Source of the DNA: a bacterium
GTDB lineage: Bacteria > Vulcanimicrobiota > CADAWZ01
Direction: 5' to 3'
Length of the DNA: 17,108 nucleotides
NCBI GenBank assembly: GCA_024409025.1
Contig: JAKSUM010000004.1
Location: 1 to 17,108 of the forward strand
Position numbers and translations under genes: made by a program
Shown: in pieces, positions 1 through 17,108 of the stretch
How positions within the stretch are numbered: position 1 is the stretch's first letter
Layout: each line of letters opens with the position of its first letter
Notes under the pieces: generated by a model
Told to the model about the DNA's origin: nothing
The model's database searches: none
The model's input: the letters and a program-made list of their open reading frames with translations, nothing else

Positions 1-181
1 CGCATGGATAGTCAAACCACACCTGTATATTCTTGGAGTCAAGCCTTTTTATCTTCACGCCCTTATGATATGAGAGCCACTTTATCCAATCCTTGTCATT
101 GACCCCTTCAAGTATGATAAAAAACTTCTCGCAACAGTGATCACTGCATGAACCACAGGGCGAATCCTCAAATTTAGTCAT
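1..181 (-). CDS. Cysteine-cluster protein, YkgJ/UPF0153-like, N-terminal part (runs off left edge)
   Basis: About 60 N-terminal residues are visible, starting at ATG 181-179; the rest lies outside the window. Cysteines at residues 9, 12, 16 and 17 form CGSCSDHCC, followed by a hydrophobic FFIIL stretch, and another Cys at about residue 60 follows a Phe-Asp-Tyr-Pro stretch. This layout matches the N-terminus of the CxxCxxCC family (YkgJ/UPF0153), thought to bind zinc or iron; no enzymatic role is established for the family. The start overlaps the end of the upstream 98-aa gene by 8 bases, which suggests translational coupling in the three-gene operon starting at 1897. Family assignment is moderately sure; the cellular role is unknown. 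Confidence 0.6.
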   Translation of the reverse strand, partial: MTKFEDSPCGSCSDHCCEKFFIILEGVNDKDWIKWLSYHKGVKIKRLDSKNIQVWFDYPC

Positions 182-470
182 AAGCCTCCCCCCAAAGCCC
201 ATGCTTTCTCAATCTGCATCTCATCTCCTCAAGATATCCCTTTGAAGATGGATGGAGAAGAGAATATGAAAAGCCAAACTCCTCGCCATTCTGTATTCTT
301 GAATAAATTGGAGTCCCGAAAAGCCTGCCCAGAGTATCCCTCATCGAGCTTGAAGGGCAGTCTATTTCCAGCATGCCCTCATCATTCCTGAACACCCTTC
401 CAAGAACGATATCCGAAGGGACATATCCCTGATGTGATTTTAAAAGGGAATATATGGCTATGCCTTTCAT
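174..470 (-). CDS. Hypothetical protein, 98 aa
   Basis: I do not recognise this small protein. It has no signal peptide, membrane segment or obvious metal-binding cluster. It begins MKGIAIYSLLKSHQG and looks like a compact mixed alpha/beta fold; the C-terminal third (KGYLEEMRCRLRKHGLWG) is probably an amphipathic basic helix. The case for a real gene is its context: its ATG overlaps the stop of the 476-aa gene in an ATGA arrangement, and its own stop lies inside the start of the Cys-cluster gene. It is therefore the middle member of a tightly coupled three-gene unit. Function unknown. Confidence 0.65.
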   Translation of the reverse strand: MKGIAIYSLLKSHQGYVPSDIVLGRVFRNDEGMLEIDCPSSSMRDTLGRLFGTPIYSRIQNGEEFGFSYSLLHPSSKGYLEEMRCRLRKHGLWGEAYD

Positions 471-1897: not shown

Positions 1898-1982
1898 TTA
1901 AAGAGCGTCCTTAAAAAATTTCTATCCTGTTAAATTTGGTTGTCATATGGCATTAATCCTTTTTATAATAAGGTTTTAATGC

Positions 1983-2012
1983 AAAAAAAGCGGCGCTGTT
2001 TTTATGCGCCGC
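1983..2012 (-). terminator. Intrinsic terminator of the M16-cmk-plsC-der-plsY operon
   Basis: Read on the minus strand, a perfect 7-bp GC stem (GCGGCGC / GCGCCGC) closes a 9-base A/T-rich loop and is followed directly by seven U residues. It starts 6 bases past the plsY stop codon. The plus strand has no T tract after the stem, so it acts in one direction and separates plsY from the 476-aa gene downstream. Confidence 0.92.
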
Positions 2013-2018
2013 AATATG

Positions 2019-2705
2019 CTATTTTTCAGAGTCCGAATCTGAAGAAGCTTCTCCTGAGGTTCCATCAGATGAGCTTCCTGAAACATTCTTCTTCTCTTTT
2101 GTGGACATCCGGAGCTCTTCCCCGTTAATGAGCCTCTTTATGTTAGACCTATGCATATATATGACAAGAAGAAAAGCCATGACTGCGAAAACCTTAAAAG
2201 GCATGTCCTGATTAAAAGCAAAAGCAAGTATCGGAAGACATAAGGCCGCAGACATTGAAGCAACAGAGCTTATTCTTAAAACAAGCACAATCAGCCCCCA
2301 AAAGGCAAAGCATATAAGAGATATAAGCCAGTTCAGGGCAAGAAAAACCCCGAAGGAAGTTGCAACGCCTTTCCCTCCTTTGAAATTAAGGAAAGGGGAA
2401 AAATTATGGCCAAGTATGGCACAGGCCCCTGCAGCAATCCTTGCTACGGAAAGAACGAATGGATCTGATATCAGCCAGCCGGCAGCAAGGACAGGAAGAG
2501 CGCCCTTAAGAGTGTCGCCAAGAAAAACAAGGCTTCCCCCGACAGGCCCCAAAGCCCTGAAAGCATTGCTGGTTCCAATATTCCCGCTTCCGGTCGTCCT
2601 TATATCGACCCCTTTCATTGACTTGCCGATTATGACCCCAAAAGGGATGCCGCCAAGCAGGAATGAAGCTGCCGCAATAATAACGGCCGTAATGACAGGA
2701 TTCAT
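2019..2705 (-). CDS. plsY: Acyl-phosphate:glycerol-3-phosphate acyltransferase PlsY
   Basis: This integral membrane enzyme transfers the acyl group from acyl-phosphate to position 1 of glycerol-3-phosphate, the first step of phosphatidic acid synthesis. The three family loops are present: GSGNIGTSNAFRALG (39-53), GHNFSPFLNFKGGKGVAT (99-116) and HRSNIKRLINGEE (185-197), between several hydrophobic membrane segments. At 228 aa it is slightly longer than usual because of a Ser/Asp/Glu-rich hydrophilic tail from about residue 201, which looks like a disordered cytoplasmic extension. It is the last gene of the operon, 3 bases after der, and a terminator follows. PlsC, the next enzyme in the pathway, is encoded in the same operon. 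Confidence 0.96.
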   Translation of the reverse strand: MNPVITAVIIAAASFLLGGIPFGVIIGKSMKGVDIRTTGSGNIGTSNAFRALGPVGGSLVFLGDTLKGALPVLAAGWLISDPFVLSVARIAAGACAILGHNFSPFLNFKGGKGVATSFGVFLALNWLISLICFAFWGLIVLVLRISSVASMSAALCLPILAFAFNQDMPFKVFAVMAFLLVIYMHRSNIKRLINGEELRMSTKEKKNVSGSSSDGTSGEASSDSDSEK

Positions 2706-2708
2706 TTA

Positions 2709-4061
2709 TTACATCTCTTCCTTGTTATTCTTAAAATTGAAAACCACAGGAGATCCTATAAATCCGAGGGTCTTTCTAAGATAATTTTCAAGATATCTCC
2801 TGTAAGAGAAATGGATGAGCTTGTTGGAATTTACCTTAATTGTAAATTTCGGCGGAGCCTCTCCAGTCTGGCATGCGTAGAATATGTTAAGCTGCTTGCC
2901 CTTAAATGACGGAGCGGGCCTCATCTCCTGAGCCTCACGGAAAATTCTGTTAATAATAGGAGTGTCAATCCTCTTATGGTATTCGCTAAGAACCTTGCTT
3001 ACTTCCGGATAAAGAGCCCCAAAGCCGGTGCCTTCCTTCGCTGAAGTGAAAAGAATCGGAGAGTAATTAAGGAAGTATATTATGCTCTTAATCTCTTCAG
3101 TCCATTTTTTCTTCTGATCAAGTACTTCCTGCTTATTCTTGCACTTGCTGACAACCGTATCCCACTTATTGACTATTATAAGAGATGCCTTATTAGCCTT
3201 CTGAATCTGTTCCGCAACTCTAAGGTCCTGATTGAGTATACCGTCCTCGGCATTAAGCACCAGTATAACGCATTCGGATTCCTCAATCGCATGGAATGTC
3301 CTGATGGCACTGTAATACTCCACCTTCTCGTCAATCTTGCCTTTCCTTCTGAGACCTGATGTATCAGTAACAAGGAAATTTCTGCCGCCTATGCTTACAA
3401 GGCTCTCAACATTGTCCCTTGTCGTTCCGGCAACATTGCTGACGATGCTTCTCTCATCATCACAGAGAGCATTAAGTATTGATGATTTGCCGACATTCTG
3501 TCTTCCGGCGAGAGTAATCTTAGGGAATGATTCTGAGGGCTCGTCCTTGTCGTCCTCCGGATTATATTCAATCTGCTTGAAGAATTCGTCCATCAAATCC
3601 GCAACACTTATTCCATGGAGAGCGGATACGCAGAATGGAACTCCGAAGCCAAGAGACATAAACTCATAAGCAGAGTCCTCAAGCTTAGGATTGTCAGCCT
3701 TATTGGCAACAATCATTACAGGCTTTTTAAGCCTTCTTATTATATTGGCAATCTCCTCGTCATCAGGAGTAAGTCCATCAACGGCAGACACTACAAAGAG
3801 TATCAGATCTGCCTCTTCAAGAGCCCTGCGGACCTGAGACTGGGACATGCTTTTTACAGCATCCCCCTCATCCTCCTCTATTCCTCCGGTATCGACAAGA
3901 AGGCACTTTTTGCCTGACCAGACGCATTCGGAATAAATTCTGTCTCTTGTTATTCCAGGCTCGTCCTGAACGATAGATATCTGTTTTCCAAGAATTTTGT
4001 TAAAAAGCTGCGATTTGCCGACATTTGGCCTTCCGGCTATCGCAACGACAGGCTTGCTCAT
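2709..4061 (-). CDS. der: Ribosome-assembly GTPase Der (EngA)
   Basis: This tandem-GTPase protein is needed for maturation of the 50S ribosomal subunit. G domain 1 carries GRPNVGKS (10-17), DTGG (57-60) and NKAD (120-123). G domain 2 carries GRQNVGKS (186-193), DTSG (233-236) and NKWD (298-301). A C-terminal KH-like domain occupies roughly 350-450. The two G domains are joined by an acidic linker around 165-178, as is typical. Length (450 aa) is near the usual 435-440. Its ATG overlaps the stop of the DUF512 gene by 4 bases and plsY follows after 3 bases, so it is translated within the same operon. Confidence 0.97.
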   Translation of the reverse strand: MSKPVVAIAGRPNVGKSQLFNKILGKQISIVQDEPGITRDRIYSECVWSGKKCLLVDTGGIEEDEGDAVKSMSQSQVRRALEEADLILFVVSAVDGLTPDDEEIANIIRRLKKPVMIVANKADNPKLEDSAYEFMSLGFGVPFCVSALHGISVADLMDEFFKQIEYNPEDDKDEPSESFPKITLAGRQNVGKSSILNALCDDERSIVSNVAGTTRDNVESLVSIGGRNFLVTDTSGLRRKGKIDEKVEYYSAIRTFHAIEESECVILVLNAEDGILNQDLRVAEQIQKANKASLIIVNKWDTVVSKCKNKQEVLDQKKKWTEEIKSIIYFLNYSPILFTSAKEGTGFGALYPEVSKVLSEYHKRIDTPIINRIFREAQEMRPAPSFKGKQLNIFYACQTGEAPPKFTIKVNSNKLIHFSYRRYLENYLRKTLGFIGSPVVFNFKNNKEEM

Positions 4062-5386
4062 ATTCTTACCTTTTCTTTCTTATTATTACGGTTTCTGCCG
4101 CATATTTCTTTTCTGAGAGAAGGGAAATCCGGACTTACTGGAATTATCCTTCTTCCGGTCTCCTGCTCCACATCGCGAACGGACATTCCGTCCAAGAACA
4201 GCTCGCCGTTCCTGAGACAGTGAGAAGGTATTATAACCTCATCAAATGCCCCATTTGTCTTTATCTCATTTACAATATCAGCTCCGGTAAGCAGTCCGGC
4301 CACGTCAACCGACGGCCCCCAGAACACGCTTTCCGCCGCCTGAACCCTCAACTCAAGATTTGCCGTCTTTTCAAACAGGGAGGCAGCATCCTTTATATGC
4401 CCGTATGCCAGCTTTCCGGTTATGATGCTTATTTTTCGAGGGGCATTTAAAGAGGACGCAATATAGCGCTTATCCCTTTTCATACCGTCAAGAAAAACCC
4501 TTGTCATGCCGATGCCGTTCTCAAGCTGTGGAAAATCTCCGTAATACCATGCCGGAGGAATATCATTGCCGGTCTTAATAAAAAACTCATCGGCGAGATA
4601 GACGAACGTATCATCGTATTCCGAAACGAAATCATTTGAGAATGCTATTGCAATCTCCATGGCATTCTCCATCTCTTCCTTAGAGAATGACCTGACCCTG
4701 TTAGGTGTATGGTATTTTGTAAGCCCTACAGGAACTATGGCCACTGAAGAGACGAAGGGATACAGGCTTCCCAAATCCTGCAGGGTCTTTTCAAGAATCT
4801 TGCCGTCATTAATTCCGGGGCAAAGGACAATCTGCGCATTGACGGAAATCCTCAAATCGGCAAGACGCCTGAGATCCTCCATAATCTTTCCGGCGGAAGG
4901 GTTCTTCATAAGTGAGACCCTCACCTCAGGATCTGTCGCATGAACAGAGACATAAAGAGGGCTTGGCCTCATCAGCTCTATCTTCTTCCAGTCATCTTCG
5001 GACATATTTGTCAGGGTGACGAAATTTCCAGCAAAAAGGGAAAGCCTGTAGTCGTCATCCTTTATCTGCATGCTCTTGCGGGCATCTCTTGGATCCTGAT
5101 CCACAAAGCAGAAATCGCATTTATTGCGGCATGATCTGATTTTGTCAAATACAACATCTTCAAATGCGATGCCAAGAGCCTCCTCCTCGGTTTTGAGGAC
5201 ACGCGCCTCATACTCCTTTCCGTCACGTACATATAGGACGGACGGATTATCCGATGAAGAATAATATGATATGTCGAGCATATCGCATACCTTTATCCCA
5301 TTTATAGCGGTAACCTCGTCACCGCACATCAAGCCGGCTCTTTCAGCCGGAGAATCTTTTTCTATGGCAGCTATTATTCCGCCCAT
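4058..5386 (-). CDS. PDZ-like / radical SAM protein of the DUF512 family
   Basis: The N-terminus (about 2-65) is PDZ-like (SPAERAGL, then GDEVTAINGIKV). Next come Cys86, Cys90 and Cys93 in CRNKCDFCFVDQ, the CxxxCxxC spacing of radical SAM [4Fe-4S] clusters, and the family signature DDDYRLSLFAGNFVTLTN. The C-terminal two thirds correspond to DUF512. The reaction and substrate of the family are not established. No signal peptide, so presumably cytoplasmic. Its ATG overlaps the plsC stop (TAATG) and its own stop overlaps the der start. From general knowledge this gene often sits beside der in Clostridia and relatives, which hints at a role near ribosome or tRNA biology, but that is inference. 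442 aa is the usual size. Confidence 0.88.
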   Translation of the reverse strand: MGGIIAAIEKDSPAERAGLMCGDEVTAINGIKVCDMLDISYYSSSDNPSVLYVRDGKEYEARVLKTEEEALGIAFEDVVFDKIRSCRNKCDFCFVDQDPRDARKSMQIKDDDYRLSLFAGNFVTLTNMSEDDWKKIELMRPSPLYVSVHATDPEVRVSLMKNPSAGKIMEDLRRLADLRISVNAQIVLCPGINDGKILEKTLQDLGSLYPFVSSVAIVPVGLTKYHTPNRVRSFSKEEMENAMEIAIAFSNDFVSEYDDTFVYLADEFFIKTGNDIPPAWYYGDFPQLENGIGMTRVFLDGMKRDKRYIASSLNAPRKISIITGKLAYGHIKDAASLFEKTANLELRVQAAESVFWGPSVDVAGLLTGADIVNEIKTNGAFDEVIIPSHCLRNGELFLDGMSVRDVEQETGRRIIPVSPDFPSLRKEICGRNRNNKKEKVRI

Positions 5387-6057
5387 TAATTTCTATTCCT
5401 TTCCGTATTGACAGGCGCCATTATCGTCTCCATAAGATCATGGGCAAATTTTGCCATGTTTTCTTTTTCCTTGGATTTATCCGGAGACTTCTCATAGACG
5501 ACCGGATCGCCTATCACGATTTTAAGCTTTCTGAATCTCGGAATAAACTTATGATGAATGCTTATGCAGTCCTTGCCCCCTATTATAGAGATTGGGACAA
5601 CAGGTGCGCCGCTCATTCTTGCAAGGGCAGAAACGCCTTTTCTGCTTTCGCTGCCCTCATCCTCTTCATTAAGAACTCTCCTGCCTTCAGGAAATATTCC
5701 GATAATCTCACCTCTTTTGAGCTTGGCAACAGCTGTCTTTATAGTACTGGGATCCGGATTGTCCCTGTTAAGCGGAATGGCGCCAAGAGATATTATAAGC
5801 TGTCTTAGGACAGGTATCTTAAAAAGATTGTCCTGAGCAATGCAGTTGACCCTTCTCCAACTCAAAGCTCCGAATATAGGCGGATCCATGTAACTTGTAT
5901 GGTTTCCGGCCATTATGCATGCTCCCTTAATATTTCTCAGCTTCTCAAGCCCTTCAACCTTCATCCCGCAGAATATGCTGAATATTCCGTTAAGGATTAT
6001 GTGCACTATTGCAAACCATAAATGTCCGAGCTTCTCGGAAAAAGAATTTTTGCTCAT
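5386..6057 (-). CDS. plsC: 1-acyl-sn-glycerol-3-phosphate acyltransferase PlsC
   Basis: PlsC acylates lysophosphatidic acid at position 2 to give phosphatidic acid at the cytoplasmic membrane. The catalytic NHxxxxD motif is NHTSYMD (His53, Asp58), and the glycerophosphate-binding motif is FPEG (122-125) followed by RR. A hydrophobic N-terminal segment (residues 14-30) probably anchors it to the membrane. Length (223 aa) is typical. The start overlaps the cmk stop by 4 bases (ATGA). It shares the operon with plsY, so both acylation steps are co-transcribed. The exact acyl donor (acyl-ACP or acyl-CoA) cannot be read from the sequence. Confidence 0.93.
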   Translation of the reverse strand: MSKNSFSEKLGHLWFAIVHIILNGIFSIFCGMKVEGLEKLRNIKGACIMAGNHTSYMDPPIFGALSWRRVNCIAQDNLFKIPVLRQLIISLGAIPLNRDNPDPSTIKTAVAKLKRGEIIGIFPEGRRVLNEEDEGSESRKGVSALARMSGAPVVPISIIGGKDCISIHHKFIPRFRKLKIVIGDPVVYEKSPDKSKEKENMAKFAHDLMETIMAPVNTERNRN

Positions 6058-6740
6058 CTCAAAGCTCTCTCACCGGCAAGCCTGACAACCTCGTTAAGGA
6101 CATCCACAGGGGTCATATCATCAGAATTTATGACAACAGCATCATGAGCCACCATAAGAGGCGAATCCGTTCTTTCCGAGTCAATCCTGTCCCTCTGCTC
6201 AAGCCTCTTTTTTATCTCATCGAGAGACACATCCCTGCCAAGCTCCTTCTCCTCAAGATATCTTCTGCGAGCCCTTACGTCAACAGAGGCGTCAAGGTAT
6301 ATCTTAAGCTCCGCGTCAGGCATTACGACCGTGGTTATGTCCCTTCCTGCCATCACAATACCGCCTTCGGCAGCCATATCCCGCTGCTGGCCAGCAAGAA
6401 CCCTGCGGACCCCGCTGACAGCCGCAACAGCAGATACAATGGAATTGACCTCCTTTGAGGTTATCTCAGACGTTATGTCATTTCCGTCAATAACGACCCT
6501 ATATCCCTTGGATATCGTCCAATCAGGAATAAGGGTAACAGGATTGTTTTCCGCAAGAGAAGCGAGAGACTCAGCATCAGAGGAATCTATCCCCCTCTGA
6601 ATAGAAAGCCATGCGACAGCCCTATACATGGCTCCTGTGTCCACATAAAGGAAGCCGAGAGCTTTGGCAGCCGCCTTTGCCGCTGTGCTTTTGCCGCATG
6701 CCGCAGGCCCGTCAAATGCTATATTTATATTTTTCTTCAT
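6054..6740 (-). CDS. cmk: Cytidylate kinase
   Basis: This enzyme phosphorylates CMP/dCMP with ATP in pyrimidine nucleotide salvage and supplies CTP for nucleic acids and phospholipids. The Walker A loop is GPAACGKST (11-19), followed by the CMP-site motif DTGAMYRA and the core motif GRDI with TVV. The C-terminal region has the family pattern RDRIDSERTDSPL and a late DAVVINSDD. The 228-aa length is normal. GAGGA lies about 7 bases before the ATG, so translation can begin independently after the 27-base gap from the M16-like gene. The downstream plsC start overlaps its stop. Confidence 0.96.
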   Translation of the reverse strand: MKKNINIAFDGPAACGKSTAAKAAAKALGFLYVDTGAMYRAVAWLSIQRGIDSSDAESLASLAENNPVTLIPDWTISKGYRVVIDGNDITSEITSKEVNSIVSAVAAVSGVRRVLAGQQRDMAAEGGIVMAGRDITTVVMPDAELKIYLDASVDVRARRRYLEEKELGRDVSLDEIKKRLEQRDRIDSERTDSPLMVAHDAVVINSDDMTPVDVLNEVVRLAGERALR

Positions 6741-6767
6741 TACTTATCCTCAAAACAGTCTTAAAAG

Positions 6768-8105
6768 TTACAGCCATGTATCGTTTATATAAAGCCCCGG
6801 AGGCCTTATTATAAGGATTTCAGGCTTGGAAAAATATTTTTTCATTACACGCAGAGCATCCTCTGAGGTGACCTTCATTATTTTTTTTTCAAAATCCTCG
6901 ACAGCGTACGGAGCCCCCAAAGCAGACGCAGAAGCAGAAAGCATTACTGATGCGGCGGCAGACTCGTTTTTAATCAGGAATTCGCCCACAGCCTTTGCCT
7001 TCGCGTCCTCAAGCTCCCTGTCCGAAGGACCTTCTTCAGCAAGAGACGCAAGGGCGTCAGAGGCTATCTTTCTGACCTTCATAGCATTCTGGGGAGATAT
7101 GACGGCATACATCATTATATGTGAAGGTCCCTCCAAATCAGGATATATGCTGCCAACCCCGTAGGCAAGCCCCTTCTTCTCCCTTATCTCGACCCAAAGC
7201 CTGGAGGAGAAGCCTTTTGCGGCAAGACATTCGACAACCTTCATGGCATGGTAGTCCTGAGAAGAAAAGGAAGGAGCAGGATAGCCGAATATAACCCATC
7301 CGTTGCCGGAGGAAGAGAGAACGAAATCCTGCTTAAGGGAAGGGGCAGGATCCCATTGTATTTCCGATACGGAAGAACGCTTTATCTCTTCAGTTCCGAA
7401 GTGCGAAAAAATAATCTTTTCGGCCTTTTCCCTGCCGGCATTGCCAGACAAAGCTATGGTCATACGCCCCGGGCTGAAAAGCCTCTTCATAAATGCCGAG
7501 GACTTTTCATAGCTCAATGACGAGACTGCCGAAAGACTGTAATCATTTATTCGCCTGTACGGATGATATCTGTAGAATTCGGAAAGGAAGAGGGAATAGA
7601 CGTCATCAATAACGCCGTTCCTGTCCTTATACTTCTTTGAATATGATTTTTTTGCCGCATCAAAAACGTCCTTATCACAGTAAAATCCAGAAAGACAGGA
7701 ACAGACATGCTCAAGCACGTCGTAAAAATCTTCCCTGAGACACTCAAAGGAAAAAGAAATATAGTCAGGGGCAGTTTCCGTCCGAAAAGACACCCCTCTA
7801 GACTCAAGATAAGGTATTCCGCCTCCGGAATCAATCCTGTCAAGCCTTTCAGAAATCATCTCTGCGGCAAAAGGCCTCATGCCCTGAGCGTATGATTCCT
7901 CGTCGGCGACCCCCCATTTCAATATGAATGAGAAGGCGGCAGTCCTGTCCGAACATGAGGTGGACTGTTCAATAACGGGCCCTTTTGCCTGCCTCCTTGA
8001 AAAAAACAGAAAAAAAGCAGGTTTAGGGGTTGAGGATGCAAACGCAGGCGGACAGAATGAAGATGCCAGAATCATAAAGGCAGCTATAGACGCATTTATT
8101 CTCAT
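6768..8105 (-). CDS. M16-family peptidase-like protein, non-catalytic subunit (secreted)
   Basis: The protein has an N-terminal signal peptide (hydrophobic core about 6-17, likely cleavage after AFA at residue 23), then two M16 halves. Where active members have HxxEH, this one has MRPFAAEMI (76-84), so the zinc site is missing. The C-terminal half keeps the substrate-positioning Arg/Tyr pair: Arg302 in SSRLW and Tyr315 in KGLAYGV. This is the pattern of the partner subunit in heterodimeric M16B peptidases. It follows the catalytic M16 gene with a 4-base ATGA overlap and a GGAGG 12 bases upstream of its ATG. The pair probably forms one exported protease; the substrate is unknown. Confidence 0.88.
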   Translation of the reverse strand: MRINASIAAFMILASSFCPPAFASSTPKPAFFLFFSRRQAKGPVIEQSTSCSDRTAAFSFILKWGVADEESYAQGMRPFAAEMISERLDRIDSGGGIPYLESRGVSFRTETAPDYISFSFECLREDFYDVLEHVCSCLSGFYCDKDVFDAAKKSYSKKYKDRNGVIDDVYSLFLSEFYRYHPYRRINDYSLSAVSSLSYEKSSAFMKRLFSPGRMTIALSGNAGREKAEKIIFSHFGTEEIKRSSVSEIQWDPAPSLKQDFVLSSSGNGWVIFGYPAPSFSSQDYHAMKVVECLAAKGFSSRLWVEIREKKGLAYGVGSIYPDLEGPSHIMMYAVISPQNAMKVRKIASDALASLAEEGPSDRELEDAKAKAVGEFLIKNESAAASVMLSASASALGAPYAVEDFEKKIMKVTSEDALRVMKKYFSKPEILIIRPPGLYINDTWL

Positions 8106-9406
8106 TTTTTCTTAGGGCCTCCGGAAAAAACAAAAACGTCAGGGCCTCCGGAAAAGCCTGATGCAATGCCGATCACATCATCTCTGGACACCTTTTCTAT
8201 CATTCCGGCATAATCAGCAGCAAAGCCCGATCTTCCTATGACGGCATAAAGACCGAAGGATCCAGCCCTACCGGCATTCGTATCAAAGGAATAGACGCTT
8301 TCTGCCGAAAGTATCCTGCGGGCTCGGGCAAGATCGGCATCGGAAAATTTTCCGTCAGCCACATATCGCACGGCCGCATCAATCTCAGACTTCAGCTCTT
8401 CAGGCGTCATATCATTTGATGATGCGGAGAAGAGAATAAGCCCTGGATCCTTCATAGTCTGAAAATCCACTCCCATAGACAGAATCCTGCCGCCGCTGTT
8501 TTCCCTTGCCTTTGCAAGAACAGAGCTTCTTCCTTTGCCAATCAGAAAGCAAAAAACGTCAGCCGCGCAAAGCTCCCGCTCCTTACTTGCAGGAGGAGCA
8601 TAGTATCCGGCCATTACCTCGGAAATACCTGATGACTTCAGCCTTTTTTCCTTCGGCTTTCCGGAAGGAATGGCGAACTCCTTCCTATCATACCTTTCAG
8701 CATATCCGGAAAGAGAGCCGTATTCGTCAGAAATAATACCAAGAGCCTCCTTTTCAGAGAACCTGCCTGCTATTACAAACACCAGATTTGACGGCCTGTA
8801 CATCTTTTCCCTGTACGAAAGGAAATCGTTTCTGGAAAATCTCTTTATATTGGCTTCATATCCGATTACAGGCCTAGCATACGGATGCTGGCCGTATGCC
8901 GTCTCAATGGCGGCATTAAACAGAACGGATGATGCTGCATTGCCTCTCATTCTGCACTCTTCAAGGATAACCTTTCTCTCAATTTCAAGCTCATCCTTTG
9001 AAAAAGAGGCCTTCTTCAAGGCATGAATAAGCATGGAAAGGGCCTTTGACGCATTTTTCGAAGGGGCATTTATATAATACCGTGTATAATCGTTCGCAGT
9101 CTCGGCATTGGAAACCCCGCCAAGAGCCTCTATAGCGGCTTTAAATTCCGCTCCGGACTCTTCCTCAGAGCCTCTGAAAAACAGATGCTCGAGAAAATGC
9201 GAAATGCCTTCCTCTCCCTTGTCTTCGTCCCTGCTTCCGGCTTTTACCCAAATATTTACGGAAACCGTCCTTGACGAGGAATCAGGAATGAATATAACTC
9301 TTGCACCGGACGGCAGCTCCTTTTCCGTCCATGCAGGCCATGCACAGACGACGGCAGGCAGCATAAAAGCAAGCGCCGCTATGATAAAAACGATTAAACG
9401 CAGCAT
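8102..9406 (-). CDS. M16-family zinc peptidase, catalytic subunit (secreted)
   Basis: The inverted zinc motif HFLEH is present (His70, Glu73, His74), and a distal Glu ligand is probably Glu149 or Glu150 in VILEECRM. I chose ATG 9406-9404 because it gives a clean signal peptide (LRLIVFIIAALAF, cleavage near VVCA, residue 22). A longer frame back to 9625 would overlap the divergent aminotransferase gene. Mature length fits M16B peptidases. The C-terminal half has lost the usual Arg/Tyr pair: the region aligned to SSRL reads SSVL and LAYGV reads LSMGV. The partner subunit carries that pair. First gene of the seven-gene operon ending at 1983. Substrate unknown. Confidence 0.9.
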   Translation of the reverse strand: MLRLIVFIIAALAFMLPAVVCAWPAWTEKELPSGARVIFIPDSSSRTVSVNIWVKAGSRDEDKGEEGISHFLEHLFFRGSEEESGAEFKAAIEALGGVSNAETANDYTRYYINAPSKNASKALSMLIHALKKASFSKDELEIERKVILEECRMRGNAASSVLFNAAIETAYGQHPYARPVIGYEANIKRFSRNDFLSYREKMYRPSNLVFVIAGRFSEKEALGIISDEYGSLSGYAERYDRKEFAIPSGKPKEKRLKSSGISEVMAGYYAPPASKERELCAADVFCFLIGKGRSSVLAKARENSGGRILSMGVDFQTMKDPGLILFSASSNDMTPEELKSEIDAAVRYVADGKFSDADLARARRILSAESVYSFDTNAGRAGSFGLYAVIGRSGFAADYAGMIEKVSRDDVIGIASGFSGGPDVFVFSGGPKKK

Positions 9407-9564
9407 ATAAAAACTTAAACCTTTTTTTGATGTTTTTTCTTCATAAAACAAAGAAAAACCTTTCAGAGCATGATTAATTAGAGGAATAAAAGAAGAAAAT
9501 GCAGAAAATTCCCTGTTAAAGCAGATGAAAAAAAGAAGAAAATCGTAAAGAGGGCTTATTTTAT
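9407..9564. promoter_or_regulatory. Divergent intergenic region between the M16 operon and the aminotransferase operon
   Basis: This 158-base A/T-rich spacer separates two head-to-head operons, so it must hold both promoters. I could not find a convincing -35/-10 pair on either strand. On the plus strand a GAGGG about 11 bases before ATG 9565 is the likely ribosome binding site. On the minus strand an AAAGG lies about 13 bases before ATG 9406, which is weak. There is no clear stem-loop or operator. Confidence 0.5.
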
Positions 9565-10818
9565 ATGAACGATCTAAAAACAACTGAACGCAGATACAAA
9601 GAGCACATTTCGCCTTCCATGGCAAGGCTTCTCAAATTTGGCGGCTTCTATGCTCAGGAAGTATCTGCCGAGGGCGTATACATATACGATGAAAAGGGAA
9701 ACAAATACCTTGACTGCTCAGGAGGCTACGGGATATTCATTCTCGGTCACAGGCATCCCGAGGTAACTGCCGCCGTCAAGGATCAGCTTGACAAAATGCC
9801 CATATCATCGCATGTATTCTTCAACCCTCTTCAGGCCGAGCTCTCCGAAAGGCTCGCCAGCGCCTGCGGCGGCGGGCTGGACTACTGCTTCATATGCAAC
9901 AGCGGTACAGAGGCAGTCGAAGGAGCAATAAAGATAGCAAGGCTGGCAACAGGAAAGCCGACTATCATATCAACGACTAACGCCTTCCACGGAAAGACAA
10001 TGGGTTCCCTTTCCGTATCCGGAAGGGAAATGTATAAAAACGGCTGCGGCCCTCTTCTCCCGGAGACAATCCACATACCGTTCAATGACGCTGAAGCGCT
10101 TGCCAATGCAATAGACGAGAATACAGCCGCATTCCTCTGTGAGCCTATACAGGGCGAAGGCGGAATAATAGTGCCTGACAGGGAGCATTTTGCAAAAGTA
10201 AGAAAAATATGCGACGATAAGGGAATCCTTTTCATAGCGGACGAAGTCCAGAGCGGCATGGGAAGAACAGGATCCTTCCTCGCGCTCGACAAATTCGGAA
10301 TAAAACCGGACATGGTTCTTCTTGCAAAAGGTCTTGGAGGCGGCGTAATGCCTATAGGGGCAATTGTCGCCACCAAGGAAGTATGGCAGCCCTTCTTCAA
10401 AAACCCCACAATCCACACCTCCACATTCGGCGGTAACCAGCTGGCCTGCAGCGCTGCAATAGCGACACTCAAAATCATAGAGAGAGACGGGCTTGTTGAA
10501 CGTGCAAAAAAAATGGGAGAATACTTCTCTGAAGGACTGAGAGCCATAAAGGCAAAGCATGAGGACGTTATCGCTGACGTAAGAGGCGCAGGACTCATGC
10601 TCGGAGTCGAGATGAAAGAGGAAGGCTACGGCGGCTCCATAATGTATGAAATGGCAAAATCGCACGTTACCGCGGTCTATACTCTTAATAATCAGAAGGT
10701 CATAAGATTTGAGCCCGCCCTAATCGTGGAGAAAGAGCAGATAGAAACGGCACTCGAAGCGTTCGAGAATGCGGTAATAAGAACAGAAGAAACTCTTGTA
10801 GCAAAAAGGAAAGACTAA
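9565..10818 (+). CDS. Class III PLP-dependent aminotransferase
   Basis: This enzyme moves an amino group between an amine (or omega-amino acid) and a keto acid or aldehyde using pyridoxal phosphate. It has the class III fold markers: phosphate-binding NSGTE (112-116), the FHG motif, PLP-ring Asp226 in FIADEVQSGMGRTG and the Schiff-base Lys255 in LLAKGLGGG. The C-terminal RFEPALIVEKEQI is as in ArgD/YgjG-type enzymes. Length (417 aa) is normal. Database names would probably be putrescine, acetylornithine or 4-aminobutyrate aminotransferase, but substrate cannot be fixed from sequence. It heads an operon with an SRPBCC protein and an acyl-thioester-reductase-like gene, so an aldehyde made there is a plausible partner substrate. 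Confidence 0.93.
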   Translation: MNDLKTTERRYKEHISPSMARLLKFGGFYAQEVSAEGVYIYDEKGNKYLDCSGGYGIFILGHRHPEVTAAVKDQLDKMPISSHVFFNPLQAELSERLASACGGGLDYCFICNSGTEAVEGAIKIARLATGKPTIISTTNAFHGKTMGSLSVSGREMYKNGCGPLLPETIHIPFNDAEALANAIDENTAAFLCEPIQGEGGIIVPDREHFAKVRKICDDKGILFIADEVQSGMGRTGSFLALDKFGIKPDMVLLAKGLGGGVMPIGAIVATKEVWQPFFKNPTIHTSTFGGNQLACSAAIATLKIIERDGLVERAKKMGEYFSEGLRAIKAKHEDVIADVRGAGLMLGVEMKEEGYGGSIMYEMAKSHVTAVYTLNNQKVIRFEPALIVEKEQIETALEAFENAVIRTEETLVAKRKD

Positions 10819-10841
10819 TTAACTGACTGGAGAATTTTTTT

Positions 10842-11279
10842 ATGCCTTACGTTGAAACTTCAATTTTTATAGATGACAAGCCTGAAAATGTTTACAAGGC
10901 GGCAAGCGACATGGAAAGCTACCCCAAGTATATGGCGGACGTGGAAAGCGTCAAGGTCATCGAAAGAACCGAAAACACAACTCTTTCAGAATGGGTGTCG
11001 GACATAGAGGGCACGCCGATCTACTGGACGGAAAGAGACACTTTCGACAGGGAAGCGATGACCATAAGCTATAAACTCACTGAGGGAGACCTTGACAAGT
11101 TTGAAGGCACATGGGTCTGTACTCCCAGCGGATCAGGTACGAACGTGGTCCTCGGAGTCGATTTCGATTTCGGAATTCCCCACCTTGAGGAGCTTATCGG
11201 ACCAGTTCTTAAGACAAAGGTAAGAGACAATTCGGATATGATGCTCGCCGGCCTCAAGGCCCTCTGCGAGCAGAAATAA
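10842..11279 (+). CDS. SRPBCC (START/polyketide cyclase-like) hydrophobic-ligand protein
   Basis: This 145-aa soluble protein begins PYVETSIFIDDKPENVYKAASDMESYPKY (positions 2 onward, pattern YVET, then aromatic-rich 'YPKYM'). That is typical of coenzyme Q-binding/polyketide-cyclase-like SRPBCC proteins, which form a helix-grip fold with a deep hydrophobic cavity. A beta-rich middle and a long C-terminal helix (about 120-143) complete the fold. No catalytic residues can be named. It sits 23 bases after the aminotransferase and 14 bases before the AAR-like gene, with TGGAG before its ATG. A role binding or presenting a hydrophobic intermediate of this operon is an inference. Confidence 0.8.
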   Translation: MPYVETSIFIDDKPENVYKAASDMESYPKYMADVESVKVIERTENTTLSEWVSDIEGTPIYWTERDTFDREAMTISYKLTEGDLDKFEGTWVCTPSGSGTNVVLGVDFDFGIPHLEELIGPVLKTKVRDNSDMMLAGLKALCEQK

Positions 11280-11293
11280 AACGGAGGCTGATT

Positions 11294-12385
11294 ATGCGCA
11301 GATTCGGTTTCTTCGTGCACCCTCTCGACATGCGCGACGTGGTGAGGATTGCCCCACAGTCAAAAGGCAAGAGGCTTCCTCTGGTGGAAAAAATACTTGA
11401 ATGGACGCCAGCCCATGAAGTCGCATACATACAGGGCCTCAAATGCGCTGACGGAGAGGATGCCGAAGGATGGTTCATAGGAATACCCCTTCTTCCAAAG
11501 CAGATAACGGGACTTCCCAAGGAATTCGTCCTCAAGAGGCTTTATGAAGGGGCGCTTCTCGCAAAGGAAAGAGGGGCCCAGATCCTTGGTCTCGGAGGAT
11601 ATACCTCGGTAATAGGTAAAGGCGGCATAGAGCTTGCCGAAATGCTTCCGGAGCTTCCGATGACAAGCGGCAACAGCTGCACAACAGCAGCAGCCATCGA
11701 TGCAACGGCAAGAGCGGCAGAGAGAATCGGAATAGATTTGGCATCAGCAAAAGTCGCCGTAGTAGGAGGAAGCGGCTCAATAGGGGCCGTTTGCGCCAAG
11801 GTCTTTGCGGCAAACGAGCAGGCGGCGGAAATAACACTGATAGCCCGCAACCAGATAAGACTTGAGAAGGTCGCAAACGAAATACATGAGGAGACAGGCA
11901 AAACAGTCCTGACAAACAACAGCGTTCAGGACGGAATAAAGGATGCCGACATAATCATATCCGCAACAAGTTCGTCCGGAGACATAATAAAAGCCGAATA
12001 CATAAAATCCGGAGCCCTAATCTGCGACGTGTCCCTTCCACATGACGTATGCAGGGATGTTGCGACCAAAAGACCAGACGTGCTCGTAATAGAGGGCGGC
12101 CTTATGCAGGTTCCCGAGGGTGTCGATCTAAACTATGATTTCGGTTTCGATCCAGGAATAGCACTTGCCTGCATGGCAGAAACAATGACCCTCTGCATGG
12201 AAGGCAGATTTGAGACATACAGCATAGGAAGAGGCCTTCAGCTGGAGAAGGTACGGGAGATATACTCCATGGCAAAGCGTCAAGGTTTCTCTCTTGCGGG
12301 CTTCCGCAGCTTTGAAAGGCTTGTAACGGATGAAATGATCGAAAAGGTCATAAAGGCTAAAAATACAGCAGAGGTTCAGGAATGA
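11294..12385 (+). CDS. Acyl-[ACP]/acyl-thioester reductase-like protein (cyanobacterial AAR family; shikimate dehydrogenase-like fold)
   Basis: The 363-aa protein resembles cyanobacterial long-chain acyl-ACP reductase along its length. It has a domain-1 motif LGLGGYTSVI, then TSGNSCTTAAAI, a Rossmann NAD(P) loop VAVVGGSGSIG (154-164) and ARNQIRLEKV. The segment ALACMAETM holds Cys293, which lines up with the cysteine that forms the acyl-enzyme thioester in the Synechococcus enzyme (Cys294 there, from memory). It ends in the family-like pattern EGRF-x5-GRG. Automatic pipelines may call it shikimate/quinate dehydrogenase. Predicted reaction: NAD(P)H reduction of an acyl thioester to an aldehyde. 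A GGAGG precedes the start, and its stop overlaps the next gene's ATG by 4 bases. Acyl chain length and carrier are unknown. Confidence 0.8.
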   Translation: MRRFGFFVHPLDMRDVVRIAPQSKGKRLPLVEKILEWTPAHEVAYIQGLKCADGEDAEGWFIGIPLLPKQITGLPKEFVLKRLYEGALLAKERGAQILGLGGYTSVIGKGGIELAEMLPELPMTSGNSCTTAAAIDATARAAERIGIDLASAKVAVVGGSGSIGAVCAKVFAANEQAAEITLIARNQIRLEKVANEIHEETGKTVLTNNSVQDGIKDADIIISATSSSGDIIKAEYIKSGALICDVSLPHDVCRDVATKRPDVLVIEGGLMQVPEGVDLNYDFGFDPGIALACMAETMTLCMEGRFETYSIGRGLQLEKVREIYSMAKRQGFSLAGFRSFERLVTDEMIEKVIKAKNTAEVQE

Positions 12386-13287
12386 AGCACATTGTAAGCG
12401 TGAGTCTCGGAACATCGAGAAGAGATCATAAGGCGGAAGCGGAGCTGCTTGGGGAAAAATTCATTATCGAGCGCCGTGGAGTAAACGGAGATACCAGAAA
12501 AGCAAAGGCTATTCTTGAAGAGCTTGACGGCAAGGTTGACGCCATAGGATTGGGCGGCCTCGACGTATATCTATATTCCAAGCATGGAAGATACGCACTA
12601 AGAGAAGGTCTGGATCTGCTGAATACTCTAAAAAAGACCCCGGCCGTAGACGGAAGCGGATTGAAGAATACCCTTGAGGCGGAGGTAATCAAAGCGGTTG
12701 CCAAAGATCCAAGATTCCCCCTGAAAGGCAAAAACGTCCTTATGGTAAGCGCCATGGACAGATTCGGAATGGCAGAAGCATTTGTTGAAGCAGGGGCCGA
12801 GATGATATTTGGGGATCTCATCTTTTCCATGGGGCAGGATAAGCCGATCAAAACGCTTGCAGAGCTTGCGGAGCAGGCGGACATGTATCTTCCTGAAATA
12901 TCCAAGCTTCCCTTGGCATTCATATATCCTATGGGAAAGAGACAGGACGAGCCTTCAAAAAACAAATTTCCCCAATACTATGAGTGGGCCGACTATATAG
13001 CCGGAGACTTCCACTATATCAGAAAATACCTTCCTCCGGAAATCAAGGGCAAGGTAATAATAACAAATACGGTGACGCCCGCAAACATAGAAGACCTTAA
13101 ATCAAGAGGAGCGTCATATATAATCACGACAACTCCTAATTTCAGCGGAAGATCGTTCGGCACAAATGTTCTTGAAGCAGTATTCGTTTCAATACTTGAC
13201 AAGCCATGGGAAGAGACGAAGCCTGAAGAATATCTTGAGCTTATAAAACGGCTCGATCTGAAGCCCAGAATTGAAAAATTAAACTAA
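12382..13287 (+). CDS. 'Quinate 5-dehydrogenase' family protein of unknown function
   Basis: This 301-aa protein matches a family I recall from Moorella-like and related anaerobes, carried in databases as quinate 5-dehydrogenase. Recognisable segments are SVSLGTSRRDHKAEAELLG at the start, DAIGLGGLDVYLY, TPAVDGSGLKNTLE, a Rossmann-like strand and turn LMVSAMDRFGMAEA (120-133), and TTTPNFSGRSFGTN near the end. I see no classical GxGxxG dinucleotide loop and no shikimate-dehydrogenase Lys/Asp pair, so the quinate name is doubtful. Its ATG overlaps the stop of the AAR-like gene, which implies a tight functional link, perhaps the same acyl/aldehyde chemistry. Soluble, no signal peptide. Confidence 0.75.
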   Translation: MKHIVSVSLGTSRRDHKAEAELLGEKFIIERRGVNGDTRKAKAILEELDGKVDAIGLGGLDVYLYSKHGRYALREGLDLLNTLKKTPAVDGSGLKNTLEAEVIKAVAKDPRFPLKGKNVLMVSAMDRFGMAEAFVEAGAEMIFGDLIFSMGQDKPIKTLAELAEQADMYLPEISKLPLAFIYPMGKRQDEPSKNKFPQYYEWADYIAGDFHYIRKYLPPEIKGKVIITNTVTPANIEDLKSRGASYIITTTPNFSGRSFGTNVLEAVFVSILDKPWEETKPEEYLELIKRLDLKPRIEKLN

Positions 13288-13305
13288 TCTAAAAGGAGAA
13301 AGACA

Positions 13306-13806
13306 ATGGCAGCGCCTTCAAAAGAAATAGTCCTCACCAGAGACACATACGAAAGCTATCAGAAGAAGCTTGATTACTATAAGACATACCGCCGTCCGGC
13401 AGTAGCCGAAAGAATCAAACAGGCTAAGGAATACGGCGATCTTTCCGAAAACGCCGAGTACGAGGATGCGAAAACCGAGCAGTCCGTAATCGAAGGAACG
13501 ATTATAGAGCTCGAAAATATCATCAGATATGCAAAAATCCTTGACGAGAAGGAAATAATAAAAGACAGAGTGGATTTCGGAGTAACCGCAGTAATCAAGA
13601 ACCTTGGAGATTCAAAGGTATATGAATACACTCTCGTAGGCTCCCTTGAGGCAGATCCGTCAAACGGCTTCATATCAAATGAATCCCCAGTAGGCAAGGC
13701 AATCAACGGAAGGGCTGTTGGAGAAGTCGTAGAGATAGAAGTTCCCAAGGGCCTTATGAAATACGAAATCTGCAGAGTCTACAAGAAACAGAAACAGTAC
13801 GAATAA
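13306..13806 (+). CDS. greA: Transcription elongation factor GreA
   Basis: GreA enters the secondary channel of RNA polymerase and stimulates cleavage of backtracked transcripts. The N-terminal coiled coil (about 10-80) carries the acidic tip DLSENAEYEDAK starting at Asp45. The C-terminal FKBP-like domain includes the VGSLEAD and ISNESPVGKAI segments. At 166 aa it is only slightly longer than usual (about 158). AGGAG sits 8 bases before the ATG. It lies 18 bases after the previous gene and 20 before lysS, in the same operon. Confidence 0.95.
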   Translation: MAAPSKEIVLTRDTYESYQKKLDYYKTYRRPAVAERIKQAKEYGDLSENAEYEDAKTEQSVIEGTIIELENIIRYAKILDEKEIIKDRVDFGVTAVIKNLGDSKVYEYTLVGSLEADPSNGFISNESPVGKAINGRAVGEVVEIEVPKGLMKYEICRVYKKQKQYE

Positions 13807-13826
13807 TACCGGAGGATACGAGTAAA

Positions 13827-15818
13827 ATGGAAAGAGAAAAACTCCCCCTCTCGCTTCAGGGAGATCAGGAAAGAGACAGAATAGCCAAGATGGATTCCGC
13901 AAGAGAACTCGGAGCGGATCCCTACGGGCATAAGTTTGCAGGAACCATAAGCACAGAGGAGATAAAGCAGCGCTTTTCTTCGCTCGGAACCGGAGAAGAG
14001 AGCGAAGGCGAGATAAAAGCGGCAGGCAGAGTCATGGCAATAAGATCCCATGGCAAGACCGCATTCCTTACCATAAACGATCTCTACGGCAGCATGCAGG
14101 TTTACTTCAGAAAGGACGTTCTTGGCGAAGAGCAATTTGCAATAGCCAAGCTTCTCGATCTCGGAGACATCATCGGAGTTTCCGGAAAGATGTTCAGGAC
14201 AAAGACCGGAGAGCTTACGGTTTTCGCATCATCATTCGAGCCCCTTTCAAAATGCCTCCATCCTATGCCTGAAAAGTGGCATGGCCTCAAGGATGTGGAG
14301 CTGAAATACCGCAGACGCTATGTGGATCTCATCGCCGACGAAAAATCCAGAAAGACATTCATTACAAGAAGCAAGATAATATCCGCAATCAGAAATTATC
14401 TCGATGCCAAGGGATTCCATGAAATGGAAACCCCATGCATGTCATCAATAGCCGGCGGAGCAGCCGCAAGGCCCTTCATAACCCACCACAACACCCTCGA
14501 TATGGACATGTATCTGAGAATAGCAACAGAGCTTCATCTCAAAAGATGCCTCGTCGGAGGAATGGAGAAGGTATATGAAATAGGAAGGCTTTTCAGAAAT
14601 GAAGGCATAGACACAAGGCACAATCCCGAATTCACGACTATCGAGCTCTATGAAGCATATTCGGATTACGAAGGCATGATGAGGACAGCTGAGGACATCT
14701 TCAGAAAGGCTGCCGACATCGTAGGAGCAGGAGACTCAATCGAATATCAGGGCAAGACAATATCCCTCAAGACCCCATTCCGCAGAATGAGCATGAACGA
14801 AGCCCTCAAGACATGGGGCGGAGTCACGATAGAAGAGATAAGGGATCCTGAAAAGGCTCCTGAAATTGCCAAGAGATTCAACCTCCCCTACACAAAGGGC
14901 GAGCCCTGCGGACATCTTATTGAGAAGGTTTTCGATGAAGTAGCCGAGCCCCATCTTTCAGATCCTATCTTCATCACCGACTATCCGATCGAGATATCTC
15001 CTCTTGCAAAGAAGCAGAAGGAAGACCCGACCCTTACATACAGATTTGAGCTCTTTATCTGCAACATGGAATTCGCTAACGCATTCTCAGAGATAAACGA
15101 TCCTCTCGACCAGCGCGCAAGATTCGAAGCTCAGGCGCTTCTGAAGGCAGCCGGAGATGAAGAGGCTCAGGATCTCGATGAGGACTTCCTCTGCGCCCTC
15201 GAATACGGCATGCCTCCGGCAGGCGGAATGGGAATCGGCATAGACAGGCTTGCAATGCTCTTTACGGACTCCCAGTCAATCAGGGACGTCATCCTCTTCC
15301 CGACACTTAAGAAATCCGAGTCAGAGAAGAAGTCCTCCCCTGCCCACTCTCAGGCACCCAAGCAGGCAGAATCTTCAGAAGCCCCTGCAGCAGTACCTGC
15401 AGCAGATGAAGCCCCTGCGGCAGAAGAGGTTCCGGCAGCAATAGACTTCTCAAAGGTAAAGACAGAGCCCATAAGTGAAGAAGCCGTCGATTTCGACACA
15501 TTCTGCAAATCGGACTTTAGGGCAGTAAAGGTCAAAAACTGCGAAGCAGTCCCGAAGTCCAAGAAGCTTCTTAAATTCACTCTCGACGACGGAACAGGAA
15601 AAGACCGCACGATACTCAGCGGAATAAAGGCATATTACGAGCCCGAGCAGCTCATAGGCAAGACGCTCGTGGCAATAACGAACCTCCCGCCCAGACAGAT
15701 GATGGGTATCGAATCATGCGGAATGCTTCTCTCAGCAGTCCATGAGGAAGAAGGAGCCGAGAAGCTCAATCTTATCATGCTAAGCAATGCAATCCCGGCA
15801 GGAGCAAAGCTCAGATAG
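13827..15818 (+). CDS. lysS: Lysyl-tRNA synthetase (class II) with C-terminal Trbp111/MetRS-type tRNA-binding domain
   Basis: Residues 1 to about 497 form a complete class II LysRS: an anticodon-binding OB domain (about 60-140), motif 1 near METPCMSSIAGGAAARPF (199-216), motif 2 in RLFRNEGIDTRHNPEFT (about 254-270) and motif 3 GGMGIGIDRLAML (466-478). A Pro/Ala/Glu-rich linker follows (about 500-550). Residues about 559-663 form a second OB domain of the EMAP-II/Trbp111/MetRS C-terminal type (FCKSDFRAVKV, KLLKFTLDDG, ITNLPPRQMMGIESCGMLL). At 663 aa it is about 160 longer than ordinary bacterial LysRS. The frame is open throughout, GGAGG precedes the ATG, and a terminator follows. The extra domain probably strengthens tRNA binding. 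Confidence 0.95.
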   Translation: MEREKLPLSLQGDQERDRIAKMDSARELGADPYGHKFAGTISTEEIKQRFSSLGTGEESEGEIKAAGRVMAIRSHGKTAFLTINDLYGSMQVYFRKDVLGEEQFAIAKLLDLGDIIGVSGKMFRTKTGELTVFASSFEPLSKCLHPMPEKWHGLKDVELKYRRRYVDLIADEKSRKTFITRSKIISAIRNYLDAKGFHEMETPCMSSIAGGAAARPFITHHNTLDMDMYLRIATELHLKRCLVGGMEKVYEIGRLFRNEGIDTRHNPEFTTIELYEAYSDYEGMMRTAEDIFRKAADIVGAGDSIEYQGKTISLKTPFRRMSMNEALKTWGGVTIEEIRDPEKAPEIAKRFNLPYTKGEPCGHLIEKVFDEVAEPHLSDPIFITDYPIEISPLAKKQKEDPTLTYRFELFICNMEFANAFSEINDPLDQRARFEAQALLKAAGDEEAQDLDEDFLCALEYGMPPAGGMGIGIDRLAMLFTDSQSIRDVILFPTLKKSESEKKSSPAHSQAPKQAESSEAPAAVPAADEAPAAEEVPAAIDFSKVKTEPISEEAVDFDTFCKSDFRAVKVKNCEAVPKSKKLLKFTLDDGTGKDRTILSGIKAYYEPEQLIGKTLVAITNLPPRQMMGIESCGMLLSAVHEEEGAEKLNLIMLSNAIPAGAKLR

Positions 15819-15830
15819 AATCAAGACAAA

Positions 15831-15856
15831 GCGGATGCTTGAGCATCCGCTTTTTT
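15831..15856 (+). terminator. Intrinsic terminator after lysS
   Basis: The sequence GCGGATGC-TTGA-GCATCCGC forms a perfect 8-bp stem with a 4-base loop, followed directly by six T residues. It begins 13 bases after the lysS stop and ends the plus-strand operon. It also marks the boundary to the AT-rich region on its right. Confidence 0.95.
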
Positions 15857-15871
15857 AAAGACCATAATATA

Positions 15872-15899
15872 TTTACCTATAATCTTATTTTAGTATAAT
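15872..15899 (+). promoter_or_regulatory. Tandem -10 elements, likely promoter of the P-loop GTPase gene
   Basis: Two exact TATAAT hexamers lie at 15878-15883 and 15894-15899. The second has TTTACC (15872-15877, four of six matches to TTGACA) 16 bases upstream. Initiation from it would fall only about 6 bases before ATG 15912, giving an almost leaderless mRNA; initiation from the first would leave a leader of about 20 bases. No Shine-Dalgarno sequence precedes the ATG. Confidence 0.55.
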
Positions 15900-15911
15900 A
15901 AATCTAAAACA

Positions 15912-17108
15912 ATGAAAAATTTTCCCGACAATATAGAAGAACTTTATAAAACATTAAAAAGTTATCCTGAATTAAAAAACAAACAATGCAGAGCATCATT
16001 CGACGGATATTTTAAAAGCATTGAACAGATACATTCATTTAATAAAGAGACAAAATACAAAATAGTATTCATAGGAGAACCTGGCAGAGGAAAAACAACA
16101 GCTATATGCAATTGGCTAAGTCTTCTGAAAACTGAAAAAATAGATCAGCCAAATATAGATTCCATATCACTTTTAGCCGCATCTTCAGGAAGAAGCACTG
16201 TAGCAGAGGTACATATAAAACAGGTCTCAACAAAGAGCAGAATTTATATAGAATATATGCCAAAAGATATTCAACAAGAATATATAAAAGAATATTGCAA
16301 TTCTTATTATACACAAGCTCTTGATATAAAAGACGAAACTGATTGCTTAGATTCAGAAGAGAATGCAGAACTTCAACACCATTCCGAAATCGATAGAGTC
16401 ATATTTAATATGGCACAGCCTATATTAGAAAAAATACCTTCAAATATTTTGGCAGATGAAGAATCGATAAAAACAAAAGAGAAAATAAAAAAAGACATAT
16501 CAGAATTTAAGAATCAATCTGAATTTTATCAATTTATATTAGATATAATCGATATAGATAATAGAAAATTACAAGAAATATTCTTACCTCCTAATGAAAA
16601 TTTTGAGAATTGGCTTAGAAATAATTTTTATGATATAAATAATGGTAATAATAAACAATGTTCTATACCTAATAAAATCTATATAGATATTAATATCGAC
16701 GATCTAAATATGGAATTGCCTGATTATGTATGCGAAATAATTGATACCATGGGCTTAGATTCAAATGTAAGACCTGATCTGCAAGAATTACTGAAAGCCG
16801 ATGATACAATATGCTTCATTATGGACGAATTAACCAAAGTTCCTTCACAAAACATTGTTAGCCTTATAAACAGCTCATTGCAAAATGATTGGGATAAAAA
16901 ATATTGCCCTAATAAAATTTCAATATTTGTAAGAGCTTCGGATGAAACATTGAGTGCAGTTATGGATGCCGAAGGAGATGCAGAAAAAGGAAATGAATCA
17001 GCAAGAACATGGCCACAAACAGATATATTAAAATCAGGACATCATGGATCAAGTACAAGTTCATCACAAAAATTCTTAGATCAAGTAAAACCAAAAATTG
17101 GAATTATA
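15912..17108 (+). CDS. P-loop GTPase-like protein running into a ComEC-type metallo-beta-lactamase C-terminal segment (partial, right edge)
   Basis: From ATG 15912 the frame is open for 399 codons to the window end. Walker A/G1 is GEPGRGKTT (55-63). A candidate switch I lies around SSGRST, about 40 residues on. A Walker B/G3-like DTMG is at 278-281, preceded by hydrophobic residues and followed by LDSNVRPDLQELL, as in dynamin/septin-like GTPases. The G1-G3 insert of over 200 residues is unusually long, acidic and probably helical. A G4-like FVRASDE follows. From about residue 355 the text changes to GDAEKGNE, then DILKSGHHGSSTS (His377, His378) and VKPKIGII, which matches the C-terminal end of ComEC/Rec2-like metallo-beta-lactamase domains. 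The earlier HxHxDH metal motif is absent. No Shine-Dalgarno. Role unknown; a defence role is speculation. Confidence 0.75.
   Translation, partial: MKNFPDNIEELYKTLKSYPELKNKQCRASFDGYFKSIEQIHSFNKETKYKIVFIGEPGRGKTTAICNWLSLLKTEKIDQPNIDSISLLAASSGRSTVAEVHIKQVSTKSRIYIEYMPKDIQQEYIKEYCNSYYTQALDIKDETDCLDSEENAELQHHSEIDRVIFNMAQPILEKIPSNILADEESIKTKEKIKKDISEFKNQSEFYQFILDIIDIDNRKLQEIFLPPNENFENWLRNNFYDINNGNNKQCSIPNKIYIDINIDDLNMELPDYVCEIIDTMGLDSNVRPDLQELLKADDTICFIMDELTKVPSQNIVSLINSSLQNDWDKKYCPNKISIFVRASDETLSAVMDAEGDAEKGNESARTWPQTDILKSGHHGSSTSSSQKFLDQVKPKIGII

Follow-up and report, generated by a model that had tools for sequence, protein, structure and literature searches.

A GTPase frame that runs into a metallo-beta-lactamase segment at a contig end is very probably an assembly chimera

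Two groups of described GTPases come closest to the gene reported here: the bacterial dynamin-like proteins (SynDLP, BDLP, IniA and LeoA) and the GTPases of DO-GTPase conflict systems (PF19975), which have a GAP1 partner (PMC7159879). The metallo-beta-lactamase (MBL) sequence that follows it in the same frame has its nearest counterparts in the ComEC/Rec2 DNA-uptake protein (TIGR00361) and in stand-alone ComEC/Rec2-type MBL hydrolases of ~300-320 aa (the P0034 family). The window, i.e., the whole stretch of 17,108 nucleotides that was analysed, is contig C191 of a MAG of 256 contigs and 1,458,370 bases, estimated as 69% complete. The features at its right end, as we interpret them, are the following:

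15912..16993, + strand: genuine N-terminal part of a ~670-aa GTPase gene, cut at the junction, with the C-terminal half on contig C217
16973..16993, + strand: junction word of 21 nt, AGGAGATGCAGAAAAAGGAAA, compatible with the GTPase gene as well as with the MBL gene
16994..17108, + strand: foreign tail, from within the gene of a stand-alone ComEC-type MBL hydrolase, without the HxHxDH region and the C-terminal end

A 399-codon frame with an ATG start occupies 15912-17108 (+), and the contig ends before any stop. In its translation, the P-loop GEPGRGKT corresponds to residues 55-62 (16074-16097) and DTMG to residues 278-281 (16743-16754), while GDAEKGNE has its first residue at 355 (16974) and GHHGSS at 376 (17037); HxHxDH is found nowhere in the 399 aa. 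The G+C content is 28.9% over 15912-16972 and 30.4% over the tail (16994-17108), versus 46.9% over 1-15820. The initial annotation had described these GTPase and late MBL motifs in one frame without a stop, an AT-rich composition across the junction and a missing HxHxDH, and its description is accurate on each point. The ComEC-like MBL segment that it had recognized is also real, since residues 334-399 match NCBIfam TIGR00361 (ComEC_Rec2) with an E-value of 1.1e-10 and the tail shares 84% identity with P0034 and other stand-alone MBL proteins, over 94% of residues 352-399.

Among the members of the GTPase family to which the frame belongs, the full-length relative P0007 is predicted to be dynamin-like. 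In the comparison with the bacterial dynamin-like proteins, identity is 8-12% in the rows concerned, with whole-chain TM-scores of ~0.3 or less, and the P-loop differs, reading GEPGxGKTT. The matches of 19 family members at an E-value of 0.01 include no Pfam dynamin family, and the PADLOC model of LeoA gave a match (E 8.8e-4, 16.5 bits) at profile positions 15-80 of 559. PF19975 was matched by two of the 19 members (best E 0.0011) and most of them had no match to it.

The tail resembles ComEC/Rec2 in its late MBL motifs (GDAEK, GHHGS), but it matches only positions 563-630 of the 663 in TIGR00361 and reaches 40.3 bits, below the curated model cut-off of 190.05 for the whole protein. Residues 352-399, used as a query, identified 52 further proteins, which are 243-322 aa long; as the search considered only candidates of 0.55-1.75 times the query length, it did not extend to full-size ComEC proteins. 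Unlike these separate proteins, 51 of which contain HxHxDH, the window keeps only positions 202-265 of the 306 in the MBL profile (residues 334-399), and its frame lacks the arrangement of an MBL-fold hydrolase, in which HxHxDH lies upstream of GDA and GHHGS. Against the MBL defence protein Avs1a, the 48-aa tail scored 12.1 bits (cut-off 420).

As for the N-terminal part, the search with residues 1-350 identified 32 proteins besides the window's own, most of the close homologues being 45-53% identical across nearly all of these residues. Residues 3-363 of the window's protein correspond to positions 5-359 of the 668 in the GTPase family profile. In the alignment, 31 of the 32 (490-689 aa) pass the junction and continue into their own C-terminus, the remaining one being a 219-aa piece that ends ahead of it, and GHHGS is present in none. 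This continuation, never with an MBL segment, is the pattern that the initial annotation had itself named as speaking against a fusion. It had also proposed separate profile searches of the two halves, and these yield two unconnected families: the GTPase profile matched 0/52 MBL homologues and the MBL profile 0/32 GTPase homologues (E 1e-3), each profile matching its own set by construction. No homologue with both halves was found in either set.

The continuation of the GTPase gene is present in the same genome. When the genome was searched with the family alignment (A1), only two places were found, namely, the window (model positions 3-358) and the minus strand of contig C217 at 5936-6859 (352-668), so that the profile is matched from near its first position to the junction in the window and the remainder lies elsewhere in the genome. 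The frame on C217 (5912-6865, minus strand, 317 aa) corresponds to profile positions 353-667 of 668, and the two halves have a G+C content of 28.9% (C191) and 25.7% (C217). Read in the direction of the gene, the first 462 nt of C217 are other DNA; an in-frame stop lies just ahead of the word, after which the contig reads EEKGKEIKQAELERK and goes on to a normal GTPase end. The 462 nt (C217 6857-7318) are foreign-looking, with 50.9% G+C and long pyrimidine-rich runs on the plus strand. Given that C191 and C217 have GAAAAAGGAAA in common at the break and in the same frame, the two contigs depart from the GTPase gene at identical codons, each into foreign DNA of a different kind. We infer that the two halves are one gene, and the real gene behind the join is almost certainly a ~670-aa GTPase; for the end of C217, we propose that it is false as well and marks another chimera at these GTPase codons.

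The end of C191 is, with little doubt, an assembly chimera of a genuine, truncated GTPase gene and a 115-nt foreign tail, and the GTPase-MBL fusion is almost certainly not a real feature. The initial annotation had left both readings side by side: its fusion architecture is not supported, and there is strong support for its assembly chimera of two AT-rich genes, chiefly from the missing GTPase half on another contig of the same genome.

The genomic neighborhood was considered as well. Downstream of the GTPase half, C217 carries a TSCPD-domain gene and then, on the opposite strand, putative type IV pilus genes, the last of which is a secretin gene (Pfam gives Secretin for this putative "pilQ", the pilQ and type IV pilus naming being our own reading). 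In four relatives, a synteny test with lysyl-tRNA synthetase (lysS) and the C217 genes as neighbors was not supportive. Although lysS was found in three of the four genomes (not in G003) and the secretin gene in all four, only G004 has both on a single contig, with the same orientation and ~30 kb between them, and in G001 and G002 they occupy separate contigs. A weak match to the TSCPD gene came from one of the four. Joining C191 and C217 would place lysS and pilQ convergent and close, unlike in G004, and the neighborhood of the two contigs thus has no independent support. The synthetase encoded by lysS in the window (13827-15818) has a tRNA_bind domain added at its C-terminus (Pfam E 7e-24, residues 565-660); the matches in G001, G002 and G004 cover residues 1-496 or 2-496 of 663, in frames of 506-534 aa.

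The word 16973-16993 is the best position for the join, and C191 ends 115 nt past it. At this position, the GTPase relatives have a conserved VNEADGD...G stretch, in which most members other than the following two read GDxDxG; the relative P0018 reads NEANGDAEKGKENK, which includes GDAEKG, and the one from the host's own family (L003, in G002) reads VNEADGDAEKGEQIK. The MBL relatives read YLFTGDAEKGNESARSWPQTD at the junction, with YLFTGDAEKGNE in the MBL proteins; of the 48 with GHHGS, 20 have GDAEKGNE exactly. Both motifs are thus native to their own families. Since members of both read GDAEKG, the 21-nt word can serve either gene in the same frame.

The tail could be followed further at the DNA level. 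Using the word and the tail as a query (136 nt), 175 of the 390 genomes of one family, probably on the Clostridia side, were matched at an E-value of 1e-3; the way to this family led from a Lachnospiraceae MAG to its class and, by way of the genomes that matched, to their order and family. Among the best 12 of the 175 matching genomes, the tail identity is 77-89%, with the highest value in G690:C56 (89% nucleotide identity over 16973-17095). With a longer query starting at 16851, the similarity begins at 16973 or 16974 in all 12 loci, and in all 12 the MBL gene's own sequence continues upstream of the word. The exact 21-nt word is present in 0/12 of these best loci; the nearest DNA has it with one mismatch (L111) or has its first 19 nt (L112), and a separate comparison, which covered the 19 of 40 MBL loci with a forward-strand motif, gave 16 nt as the longest stretch identical to the word (L030). 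With no exact copy in the 12 loci, we infer, rather than observe, that the true donor has it. The core of the word occurs once in the genome itself, and viral contigs gave 0 matches to the word. These comparisons suggest a Clostridia-side donor family for the tail, which most likely comes from another bacterium, as a piece of an ordinary stand-alone MBL hydrolase. The host's own ComEC was considered as a source and rejected, the ComEC-like match of the host (on C22) being only 44% identical to the tail.

How the join could have arisen may be outlined as follows. The genome would have a normal ~670-aa, low-G+C GTPase gene downstream of lysS, and at the GDAEKG codons this gene and the MBL gene of another bacterium in the same sample would have a word of ~20-21 nt in common. 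A short-word (de Bruijn-type) assembler would have quit the GTPase path at this word and run 115 nt into the MBL gene, and the other GTPase half would have been assembled separately, opening a second contig, C217. We take this assembler step as the probable origin of the join; in assemblers, 21 is commonly the default for the minimum word. Word and tail together (136 nt) would fit within one read if a read length of 150 nt is assumed. Both genes read the word in one and the same frame, and this keeps the false join open. Short-read metagenome assemblers build their graphs from short words, some of them stepping up from a small k, and words in common are described as able to yield chimeric contigs (PMC7299287).

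Two other explanations have to be weighed against the assembly chimera, and we consider each of them highly improbable. A genuine new architecture, in which a GTPase took up part of an MBL fold and became a nucleotide-switched hydrolase, would agree with the single open frame, free of stops and frameshifts, and with the even base composition across the join. However, none of the 32 GTPase and 52 MBL homologues has both parts, the MBL part begins at position 202 of 306 and is without HxHxDH, and the rest of the GTPase is on C217. The join interrupts both folds; on the GTPase side, near residue 360 when aligned to the P0007 model, it precedes strands 386-388 and 394-402 and the whole helical stalk. 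The synteny result does not favor a real fusion, nor does the database cluster of the window's protein, which has three member sequences from two contigs. The second explanation is a real recombination in the living population, where microhomology with an MBL gene broke the GTPase gene and left a truncated pseudogene in some cells; recombination, like assembly, could make use of a common word of ~20 nt. Against it, C191 stops 115 nt past the word, where C217 also breaks, its foreign DNA being a different one, a pattern that would fit a weakly covered graph node and not one recombination event. That the genome has two GTPase-family genes, each of them half assembled, is possible in principle, but both would need to break at the same codons.

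The assembly chimera also has a practical side. A public genome bin with a false fusion could give rise to the record of a supposedly new defence architecture, and here a short in-frame coding coincidence (GDAEKG) keeps the frame of the chimera open and its composition even, so that both usual checks miss it. A test for such chimeras that does without reads is to search the bin itself for the half that each partner lacks.

Freed from the tail, the GTPase belongs to a family that was found in MAGs of Lachnospiraceae, Atopobiaceae, Methanomethylophilaceae and Verrucomicrobia. Relatives were searched for with the window's protein in 98 genomes, the own one included, of which 14 were matched; the GTPase part was matched only in the own genome and in G002, the other 12 being matched in the tail region only (residues 333-399 or less, 38-58% identity). 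A first scan of genome contigs with the window's protein gave no confirmed relative, and neither the GTPase half nor its family was found in viral contigs and phages. Plasmids gave no blastn match to 15840-17108, and with P0007 they gave 10 records below 60% identity, several of them annotated as helix-turn-helix or XRE regulators. In both contigs, the GTPase gene, with 26-29% G+C (window 15820-17108; C217 5912-6856), adjoins DNA of 45-47% G+C, as expected of a recent acquisition.

The surroundings of the gene differ among the relatives. In an Atopobiaceae MAG (L017:7908-11213), a HEPN_Swt1-domain gene (E 2.1e-23) follows the GTPase gene, and two genes, ATPase-like and DUF4276-type by eye, precede it, the setting being defence-like. 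In a Lachnospiraceae MAG (L016:2571-10004), the GTPase gene comes after an apparent serine recombinase and mobile-element replication genes (by eye), which suggests that it is carried on an integrative element. A Verrucomicrobia MAG (L019:7983-13482) has tandem GTPase copies, the second in a frame of 1139 aa with a long extra C-terminal region; a formylglycine-generating-enzyme-like domain, suspected there by eye, is not claimed, as Pfam found 0 families in the whole protein at an E-value of 0.001. Tentatively, and with more doubt than confidence, these ~670-aa proteins may be seen as a family of dynamin-like GTPases without a Pfam family of their own, spread by horizontal transfer between distant gut bacteria and archaea and sometimes located beside defence-type genes, which could act as a mobile, membrane-acting immunity GTPase.
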